Shown: positions 23,958 through 29,735 of the stretch, one piece after another | How the letters are laid out: every line of letters starts with the position of its first letter | How positions within the stretch are numbered: the stretch's first letter is position 1 | Assembly: GCA_018400955.1 (NCBI GenBank) | Contig: JAGYLH010000005.1 | Span: forward strand, 1 to 64,000 | Length of the DNA stretch: 64,000 nt | Source: Bacteroidales bacterium | GTDB lineage: Bacteria > Bacteroidota > Bacteroidia > Bacteroidales > F082 | Direction of reading: 5' to 3' | The notes under the pieces: generated by a model | Told to the model about the DNA's origin: nothing | Seen by the model: only the letters and a program-made list of their open reading frames with translations | The model's database searches: none | Made by a program: the position numbers and the translations under genes

Positions 23958-24150
23958 GTTATAGTGATTGAATAGGTTCTGGAAGATTGTAAACCTGAAT
24001 AAAATCTTCAGGAAGATAGAATGGTATGCCGACCCAATTTGCAGAAAAAATCCGACATTTGAAATTAATATCTAATTGATGTTCAGTTTTTTTATTCATT
24101 TTCCCCAAATAATTTATTTTAAAAAGTGTGCTAAAAGTACAAACTATTCT

Positions 24151-27223: not shown

Positions 27224-27250
27224 TTGATGACTCAGCAAATACTACTTTTG
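27224..27250 (+). promoter_or_regulatory. Promoter of the hemerythrin-LuxR-flavodoxin operon
   Basis: TTG at 27224-27226, a 16-nt spacer, then TACTTTTG at 27243-27250. The spacing is slightly short. It lies 47 bp before the ATG at 27297. Confidence 0.5.
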
Positions 27251-27296
27251 TATTTATAATCGTTCTAAATAGAAACAAATCTATTATTGCCTCATT

Positions 27297-28031
27297 ATGC
27301 GCATTCAAAAGGACTTAAAGATGGCTGACGTCATTCACATGAACCACCATTTGCTTCATGTAATCAATCGTTTCGGGATTCAACTCGGGTTTGGCGACAA
27401 TACAGTGGAAGAAGTTTGCAGGAACTACAATGTTAACCTTGATTTTTTTCTGGAAATTGTGAACACCTATCACGACCCGACTTATTTTCCGCTGGGGGAT
27501 TTGCAGAAATTCCCTGCCTCTATGCTGATCAGGTATCTACAAAAAACGCATCAGTTTTACCTTGAAGTTAAAATACCCGAAATAGAGGTTGCTATCCAGA
27601 ACCTTATTGATAATGTTGCTTTTGAAGCGGATCACTTGCACTTGCTAAAGGATTTTTTCAACAATTATAAAAATGAACTCACAGACCATATTAATAAGGA
27701 GGAACAACGTGTATATCCATATGCCCTGGCACTGGAACATCAACTTGCCAATGAGGGCCATCTCCTTGAAGAAGGTTTGGTGAAGGCCAATTACAGCATT
27801 CACGATTATGAAGAAGATCATGATGATGTGGAATCCAAACTGTTTGATTTAAAAAACATTATCATTAAATACCTGCCATCGCCCCTGGAAAGTGTGCGCT
27901 TCAACAGCATATTGCATGAGCTTTTTGAGCTGGAAAAAGACCTCAACAATCATGGACATATAGAAGACCTGATTCTAATTCCCATTGTGGAAAGGATGGA
28001 ATCAGAAGTGGCCCACAGAATTGCTAAATAG
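27297..28031 (+). CDS. Hemerythrin-domain protein, RIC/ScdA-like
   Basis: 244 aa. Residues about 1-75 resemble the N-terminal segment of ScdA/RIC proteins (MNHHLLHVINRFGIQLGFGDNTVEEVC) but lack the CC pair of canonical ScdA. Residues about 95-240 are a hemerythrin-like four-helix bundle with spaced metal ligands: ADHLHLLKDF, ELTDHINKEEQ, DYEEDHDDVE and HELFELEKDLNNHGHIED. RIC proteins repair iron-sulfur clusters damaged by nitric oxide or oxidants, but other hemerythrins sense or store oxygen. It is the first gene of a four-gene operon with a LuxR-type regulator 6 bp downstream. Confidence 0.85.
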   Translation: MRIQKDLKMADVIHMNHHLLHVINRFGIQLGFGDNTVEEVCRNYNVNLDFFLEIVNTYHDPTYFPLGDLQKFPASMLIRYLQKTHQFYLEVKIPEIEVAIQNLIDNVAFEADHLHLLKDFFNNYKNELTDHINKEEQRVYPYALALEHQLANEGHLLEEGLVKANYSIHDYEEDHDDVESKLFDLKNIIIKYLPSPLESVRFNSILHELFELEKDLNNHGHIEDLILIPIVERMESEVAHRIAK

Positions 28032-28037
28032 CCAATT

Positions 28038-28652
28038 ATGAAGCAATTGCGTATTTTATTGATTGAGGAATCATTCATAGTAAGGGAAGGGGTTAAAACC
28101 CTATTAAGCCTGTTGGGAAGGCCCTACAGTATGGAGGAATGTGAGGCCCTAAGCATGGGCCTTAGCCGGTTGTTGAGTAGAATTGAACCAAATATTGTAA
28201 TTGTAAATCCCATCCTGTTAAAGGATTATTCAGTTTATCCCCGAAAAATAAACAATAAAGCAGTGTTTTTCGTTGGCCTTTGCGATGATTCGGTTGATAA
28301 GCAGTTGTCAGGACGTTTCGATTTTGTCTTGTCAATAAAAGATGACAAAGTTAGCTTGTTACAACAGCTTGAAAAAATCCTCGAAAAAGCAAATTTTGGC
28401 AGTAATCACCAGGAATCAAATACCCTGAGTGAGCGCGAAACATCTGTTTTAAAGTGTGTTGCACTGGGACTTACAAACAATGAAATTGGCGAAAAACTTT
28501 TTATAAGTACCCATACCGTTATGACGCACCGCAAGAATATCACCAGAAAATTGGGTATAAAAACTGTAAGTGGCTTAACTGTATATGCCATACTTAATAA
28601 ATTGATAAAAGTTGAAGAACTGCAAATTACAGTAAACAAGGAAGATGAATGA
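28038..28652 (+). CDS. LuxR/NarL-type regulator with a degenerate receiver
   Basis: 204 aa. Residues about 1-115 have the size and start of a response-regulator receiver (MKQLRILLIEESFIVREGVKTLL) but the acidic pair is EE-S instead of DD and the phospho-acceptor position reads IVIVNPILLKD, without Asp. Residues about 135-200 form a standard LuxR HTH: LSERETSVLKCVALGLTNNEIGEKLFISTHTVMTHRKNITRKLGI. Phosphorylation control is therefore unlikely. Its stop overlaps the flavodoxin start by 4 bp (ATGA), so it is firmly in the operon. A co-regulator of this operon is the natural guess. Confidence 0.88.
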   Translation: MKQLRILLIEESFIVREGVKTLLSLLGRPYSMEECEALSMGLSRLLSRIEPNIVIVNPILLKDYSVYPRKINNKAVFFVGLCDDSVDKQLSGRFDFVLSIKDDKVSLLQQLEKILEKANFGSNHQESNTLSERETSVLKCVALGLTNNEIGEKLFISTHTVMTHRKNITRKLGIKTVSGLTVYAILNKLIKVEELQITVNKEDE

Positions 28653-29188
28653 AAGCAAAGGGTAGGATTGCTATATTTTACGGGAGTTCCACCGGCAATA
28701 CAAAAAAAGTATCGAACGAACTTGCTGATAAATTTGAACATGCCCACAAGTTGAATGTTGAATATGCAAGCAAAAATGATCTGGAAGCCTTTGATTTTTT
28801 AATTTTTGGGGTGCCAACATGGGGCATTGGCGATATGCAGCATGATTGGGAAAACTTTCTTAAAATCGTGCAAAAGTCTAATCTGTCAGATAAAATTGTG
28901 GCACTTTTTGGATTGGGTGACCAAAAAAACTACCCAGATAGTTTTGTTGATGGGCTGGGTTTTTTGTACGATAGCATTTGCAGCAAAGCAAAAATCATTG
29001 GTAAGTGGCCCGGCAGTGGATACAATTTTAAGCAATCAAAAGCACTAAAAAATGGATCTTTTGTGGGGCTTGCAATCGATTGCCAAAATCAACCACATCT
29101 TACCCAATCACGCATCAATGACTGGTCTGTCCAGCTTAAAGGTGAATGGGAAGCACTAAAGTTACAGCATGCCAACGACAATTTTTAG
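28649..29188 (+). CDS. Flavodoxin (first of two)
   Basis: 179 aa, a long-chain flavodoxin. The FMN phosphate loop is FYGSSTGNTKKV (about residues 10-20), and the flavin-stacking residues lie in VPTWGIGDMQHDWENF (Trp) and GLGDQKNYPDSFVDGLG (Tyr). It carries single electrons in the cytoplasm, often replacing ferredoxin. The C-terminus has an extra tail (WEALKLQHANDNF). It overlaps the regulator gene by 4 bp and is followed by a second flavodoxin gene. The two proteins share most motifs but are clearly divergent. Confidence 0.93.
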   Translation: MKAKGRIAIFYGSSTGNTKKVSNELADKFEHAHKLNVEYASKNDLEAFDFLIFGVPTWGIGDMQHDWENFLKIVQKSNLSDKIVALFGLGDQKNYPDSFVDGLGFLYDSICSKAKIIGKWPGSGYNFKQSKALKNGSFVGLAIDCQNQPHLTQSRINDWSVQLKGEWEALKLQHANDNF

Positions 29189-29189
29189 T

Positions 29190-29197
29190 TATTTTTG
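29190..29197 (+). promoter_or_regulatory. -7 box (TATTTTTG) for the second flavodoxin
   Basis: TATTTTTG starts one base after the stop of the first flavodoxin gene and lies 38 bp before the next ATG. No -33 TTG was found. If used, the second flavodoxin could be expressed independently of the operon. Confidence 0.4.
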
Positions 29198-29234
29198 CAT
29201 TTCGATTTTTTTTATAAACTGAAATAGACATCTA

Positions 29235-29735
29235 ATGGAAACGATAGGAATATTTTACGGATCAACCTCCGGGGCAACAAAAACAGTGGCGGAGAGAATT
29301 CAAAAAGCATTTGGTAAAAAGGCTGAACTTCATGATATTAAGGAGGCTAATATTGAAATGATTCAGGGTTATACTAACCTCATTTTCGGCACCTCCGCAT
29401 GGGGAATTGGCGATATGCAGGATGATTGGGAAGATTTTATAGATGAACTGAACGAGGTTGACTTCAAAGGGAAATCAGTGGCTTTGTTTGGCACCGGCGA
29501 CCAAGATGAATACCCGGAAAGCTTTGTCGATGGCCTGGGCACTCTATATTGCCGTTTGCCTGACAAATCAGTTGTGGTAGGCTCCTGGCCAAAGGAAGGG
29601 TATGACTACTATTTTTCGCTGGCCGAAAAAGACGATAATTTTGTTGGGCTGGTCATTGATGAGCACCAACAGGCTGATAAAACAGATGAGCGTATTGCTA
29701 AGTGGGTTGATAAACTAAAAAAAGAGATGGTTTAA
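29235..29735 (+). CDS. Flavodoxin (second of two)
   Basis: 166 aa long-chain flavodoxin: FYGSTSGATKTVAERIQ at the N-terminus, FGTSAWGIGDMQDDWEDF and FGTGDQDEYPESFVDGLGTLY for the flavin-stacking loops. This is closer to the standard FldA pattern than its neighbour. It lies 46 bp after the first flavodoxin with a possible promoter in the gap, and a strong terminator follows. One copy may be a housekeeping carrier and the other stress-induced; that is inference. Confidence 0.94.
   Translation: METIGIFYGSTSGATKTVAERIQKAFGKKAELHDIKEANIEMIQGYTNLIFGTSAWGIGDMQDDWEDFIDELNEVDFKGKSVALFGTGDQDEYPESFVDGLGTLYCRLPDKSVVVGSWPKEGYDYYFSLAEKDDNFVGLVIDEHQQADKTDERIAKWVDKLKKEMV

Follow-up and report, generated by a model that had tools for sequence, protein, structure and literature searches.

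A four-gene operon in the window, by which we mean the whole 64,000-nucleotide stretch of Bacteroidales DNA analyzed here (contig JAGYLH010000005.1), belongs to a phylum-wide family of the CdhR type that has been described before, to which it adds a clade-specific tail of flavodoxin genes. It probably acts as a CdhR-type iron-limitation response module in which input from a hemerythrin would take the place of phosphorylation, a reading that takes the iron response from published homologues. The four genes, all on the forward strand, encode a RIC-derived hemerythrin-like protein that is the putative sensor (27297..28031; 244 aa; Pfam Hemerythrin, 3e-7), a CdhR-like regulator of the LuxR/NarL type (28038..28652; 204 aa; Pfam GerE, 1e-17), and two long-chain flavodoxins (28649..29188, 179 aa; 29235..29735, 166 aa).

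The spacings between successive genes are 6, -4 and 46 bp, and the open reading frames (ORFs), including the 4-bp overlap between the regulator and the first flavodoxin, are present as an earlier note on this DNA had described them; the gene 3' of the second flavodoxin is convergent. The source genome (G000) is a metagenome-assembled genome that is 83% complete and spread over 235 contigs. The glycosyltransferase, DprA and PrsW-like synteny around the operon is also found in relatives, and the window is therefore not chimeric at this point. Upstream of the first gene, reading of the sequence located a putative promoter with the -7 element TACTTTTG (27243..27250, forward strand), which fits TAnnTTTG, presumably the -7 consensus of the Bacteroidota. 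Directly 3' of this element, in an operator-like position, lies a 19-bp palindrome, ATTTATAATCGTTCTAAAT (27252..27270), and given this arrangement the operon looks to be transcribed from its own promoter. Scans for Sigma-70 promoters and terminators returned no more matches than shuffled sequences did, and no RNA elements were found between positions 24000 and 33000.

Hemerythrin and regulator stay linked much more consistently than chance would allow. Among 80 named loci obtained with the hemerythrin as seed, the regulator lies directly downstream on the same strand in 78; one of the remaining loci is a fusion (L079) and in the other the regulator was not detected (L103). An order-wide sample, in which the hemerythrin was present in 159 of 247 genomes, yielded 40 loci that were all paired (36 as separate genes, 4 fused), counting as paired one regulator split by an apparent frameshift; the two sets share some genomes, and their counts are not independent. 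When the search was seeded with the regulator, the nine best non-self matches all adjoined, or were fused to, the same hemerythrin, and the hemerythrin-regulator order is repeated in the Bacteroidaceae-like genomes G238 and G230. The pair is essentially obligate. Four fusions (L311, L313, L314 and L315) join the hemerythrin to the helix-turn-helix (HTH) domain within 316–343 aa, leaving no room for a receiver, which is likewise left out of the more distant hemerythrin-HTH fusions L012 and L079. Since natural fusions drop the receiver altogether, the hemerythrin is the likely input, and the pairing together with the receiverless fusions supports the earlier suggestion of a regulator that works with a hemerythrin partner and without a phospho-acceptor.

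The hemerythrin-like protein resembles the RIC family (YtfE, ScdA; TIGR03652) in its four-helix fold and in six of the seven metal ligands, and its N-terminal segment can be aligned to the N-terminal domain of RIC. Its AlphaFold2 model (pLDDT 90) found good PDB matches only in YtfE and ScdA, and the ligands H85, H131, E135, H175, H219 and E223 are invariant in an alignment of 60 relatives (60/60), as is C41; the seventh RIC ligand, equivalent to His105, is a histidine in only 11 of the 60. The label “hemerythrin/RIC protein” given previously is apt as regards fold, but the protein is not a RIC. It scores 69.7 bits against the TIGR03652 equivalog cut-off of 204.7, a third of what is required, the Cys-Cys motif of the RIC N-terminal domain is absent from it and from all 60 relatives, and LGFGD stands where RIC has DFCCG; membership of the RIC family was rejected on the score and the missing motif. 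Hemerythrin search scores across the phylum are bimodal, falling at ≤1e-61 or at ≥1e-35, and these two separate groups imply that the window protein belongs to a distinct family. Elsewhere in the same genome, at L001 (contig C192) and L034 (contig C159), lie a genuine RIC that has the Cys-Cys motif (229.6 bits) and a third flavodoxin.

The regulator consists of a degenerate receiver (approximately aa 1–120) and a GerE HTH domain (aa 129–184). No Pfam receiver was matched in it at E<1, and only 5 of 63 relatives reached Response_reg at 0.01. AlphaFold2 nevertheless predicted, linked to the GerE HTH, a receiver-like domain whose helices 3 and 4 are short (pLDDT 92), and the top PDB matches using Foldseek were ChrA (E 4.8e-9), StyR, FixJ, VpsT and NarL; the protein thus combines the receiver fold and NarL/LuxR-type HTH of two-component regulators. 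At the end of beta-3, where the phospho-accepting Asp belongs, it has Asn57, and the same column holds Asn in 37/63 relatives and Asp in 10/63. The loss of the acceptor in the window, as claimed in the earlier note, was therefore borne out, and the structure prediction it had proposed gave a receiver-like fold but with Asn in the acceptor column. The acidic pair, which the same note had also considered lacking, is substituted rather than absent in the window protein (Glu10-Glu11); in relatives it is mostly reduced to one acid, the second position being D/E in 9/63. VpsT/CsgD-type members of the NarL family offer a close comparison, as they too join a receiver-like domain outside the usual phosphorylation scheme to a GerE-type HTH and VpsT is among the best structural matches, but the window regulator is partnered with a hemerythrin and c-di-GMP binding is not indicated. 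It seems to us very improbable that an orphan kinase phosphorylates the protein as it would an ordinary response regulator. Such a role could account for the Asp retained by a minority of relatives and for a receiver-like fold whose top matches include ChrA, NarL and VpsT, but not readily for the Asn of the window and most relatives, nor for fusions that lack the receiver; moreover, clustering of neighboring genes found no kinase gene consistently adjoining the pair.

Both flavodoxins of the window are recognized by Pfam Flavodoxin_1 (2e-17 and 2e-21) and pass the cut-off of the long-chain flavodoxin model TIGR01752 (190.8 and 195.2 vs. 146.75). A co-directional flavodoxin directly downstream of the pair occurs in the window's clade (L036-L044, L046, L055) and in L060, and its counterpart in the window is the second flavodoxin; in the Bacteroidaceae-like locus L296 a flavodoxin is instead divergent from the pair. 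As only some 17 of 121 loci have a flavodoxin gene within ∼5 kb of the pair (15 loci among the recurrent neighbors), flavodoxins are not a core component. The arrangement with two flavodoxins was seen in just one of the 80 named relatives (L036) and is specific to the window's clade, so that the survey of the hemerythrin neighborhood suggested previously upheld the hemerythrin-regulator linkage almost throughout while confining the tail to this clade. In one genome (L092) the hemerythrin-regulator pair occurs twice inside 4 kb, and a flavodoxin follows its second occurrence.

Unbiased clustering of neighbors over 119 hemerythrin-regulator loci identified a FeoB or FeoAB transporter for ferrous iron at seven of them, in a same-strand, operon-like layout, where ∼0.5 would be expected assuming 1.5 feoB per 3.5 Mb and with loci that are not fully independent. 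FeoB is the only recurrent functional neighbor besides flavodoxin, the remainder being mostly housekeeping synteny. Recurrent linkage to genes for NO or peroxide detoxification was not found across the 119 loci. A hybrid cluster protein (Hcp; hydroxylamine reductase) is present at a single locus (L296:2795-4435, reverse strand), where it directly adjoins the flavodoxin divergent from the pair, and is the only hint of nitrosative stress.

The palindrome upstream of the operon has two mismatches to a box, ATTTAGAATnATTCTAAAT, that recurs throughout the genome. Sites were mapped in the window, across the G000 genome, and at L146-L162, L181-L195 and L223-L276; several Bacteroidales are represented. 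The match at 27252-27270 is the only one in the window (0.11 expected), G000 has 43 sites vs. 5 for the reversed control (≤3 mismatches), and three relatives have 28, 22 and 21 sites vs. 0 in each control (≤2 mismatches); none of 90 sites examined was inside an ORF of at least 100 aa. The box lies upstream of the hemerythrin and/or flavodoxin at L036, L042, L043, L052, L055 and L094, and, according to identities read from the sequences, also precedes genes for superoxide dismutase, Sco-like, cbb3 oxidase, NADH dehydrogenase-like, 2-oxoacid dehydrogenase E2, ATP synthase, sigma-70 factor and TrhO-like proteins. The box thus places the operon in a wider energy, redox and iron regulon, but is itself silent on which signal is sensed. 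In 88 Bacteroidales genomes that had no hemerythrin match the box was also enriched (347 sites vs. 61 control), and it was rejected as the regulator's own binding site; given this enrichment, some other regulator most likely binds it. Fur/PerR boxes are similar in geometry to its 7-1-7 AATnATT layout and G000 has two Fur-family genes, so a protein of that family may be the one that binds. A literature search for the box sequence found no paper. On three contigs of G000 (L147, L148 and L152, on C28, C37 and C214), closely similar ORFs of 88–89 aa have the box exactly 79 bp upstream, and these copies look like a repeated element carrying it. In genome G238 (L004, ∼652-671; flavodoxin/hemerythrin intergenic region of L296) the promoter region between the divergent flavodoxin and hemerythrin genes contains another palindrome, AATCACTATTTATAGTGATT, which is perfect and is accompanied by a further, partial copy; it is a candidate regulator site in this Bacteroidaceae-like family.

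A palindromic box over the promoter could provide transcriptional control without any sensor, and the degenerate receiver may serve for nothing more than dimerization. One iron-regulated operon might then yield two proteins that act separately, the hemerythrin protecting or storing iron and the regulator being set by its own abundance, through transcription under a box of the Fur family or of another kind, and neither signaling to the other. We regard this as unlikely, since without a physical link it is difficult to account for a pairing that is almost perfect throughout the phylum and for the recurrence of hemerythrin-HTH fusions.

An identical hemerythrin-CdhR operon has been reported in Porphyromonas gingivalis (PG1236-37) and Bacteroides thetaiotaomicron (BT_0519-0520), with a fused form in Prevotella intermedia, and the homologous operons of the three species are induced by iron limitation (PMC10434189). 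Under low iron, PG1236-37 rose 6.9–7.3 fold and BT_0519-0520 16–20 fold, and the flavodoxins BT_0517 and PG1858 rose 326 and 133 fold, respectively (PMC10434189). CdhR regulates hmuYR (PMC10434189; PMC10101095), being an activator of hmu (PMC10101095), and has been tied to community development in P. gingivalis (PMC4082711). The earlier note knew of no description of the combined unit, but the published operon already includes hemerythrin and CdhR with the flavodoxin BT_0517 adjoining (PMC10434189). Like these operons, the window has a hemerythrin-domain gene followed by a LuxR-type regulator, with a flavodoxin beside the pair as at BT_0519-0520, and the P. intermedia form is mirrored by our fusions L311-L315; unlike them, its two flavodoxins are co-directional and directly downstream, with no DUF2023 gene among them. 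Based on gene order, domain make-up and the shared fusions, the window pair is most likely of the CdhR type, and would by analogy with its homologues respond to iron limitation.

The earlier note had instead read the genes as a small NO/oxidant response unit, in which the hemerythrin would sense NO or O2 or repair di-iron or Fe-S centers, the regulator would respond, and the flavodoxins would feed electrons to repair or detoxification. The kinship of the hemerythrin to RIC in both sequence and fold is in keeping with this, as are the sharing of the operon's box with superoxide dismutase, Sco-like and cbb3 oxidase genes and the Hcp, a nitrosative-stress enzyme, in L296. However, the protein fails by the marks of a RIC, in both its score and its missing Cys pair, and a genuine RIC is available in the same genome; Hcp is not among the recurrent neighbors, which are flavodoxin and FeoB; iron limitation is what the homologues respond to (PMC10434189); and lower cdhR has been reported under microaerophilic conditions (PMC10101095). 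With one Hcp neighbor in its favor, NO may contribute, but the reading as a whole finds little support, and we consider the unit as proposed to be improbable.

In the iron-limitation module that we prefer, the hemerythrin-like protein would bind, or fail to bind, a di-iron center and so report cellular iron, a report that O2 or NO may modify. In place of phosphorylation, direct contact between the two proteins would relay this state to the LuxR-type regulator, the two being one polypeptide in several lineages, and the regulator would then adjust iron-related genes. The two flavodoxins, which are iron-free, would take over electron transfer from ferredoxin under iron scarcity. In favor of this module are the pairing and the fusions, the invariant metal ligands and the RIC-like fold, the mostly lost phospho-acceptor, the recurrence of flavodoxin and FeoB beside the pair, and the published induction of the homologues by low iron. 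Counting against it are the small share of loci in which flavodoxin is linked, the relatives of the regulator, ten in 63, with Asp at the acceptor column, and the reports that CdhR controls mfa1 and luxS and lies downstream of tyrosine phosphorylation (PMC4082711).

Regulators of the CdhR type are among the iron-responsive regulators of the Bacteroidota, and their mode of action has been stated to be unclear (PMC10434189). Our survey offers a testable answer, namely that the hemerythrin partner is the sensor, because its separation from the regulator is very rare, because some lineages join it to the HTH and discard the receiver, and because its metal ligands have been kept. More tentatively, and with rather less confidence than in the module as such, we suggest that across the Bacteroidota a RIC-related hemerythrin may serve as a bacterial iron sensor that docks on a phosphorylation-dead LuxR-type regulator, the di-iron protein replacing a histidine kinase and the receiverless hemerythrin-HTH fusions being the minimal one-component form. 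A hemerythrin domain serves as iron sensor in FBXL5 and BRUTUS (PMC12022348; PMC6381054); these are eukaryotic ubiquitin ligases, and homology is claimed for the hemerythrin-like fold only. If the suggestion is true, the pair, spread over the Bacteroidota, would parallel FBXL5 and BRUTUS in its logic within prokaryotes.
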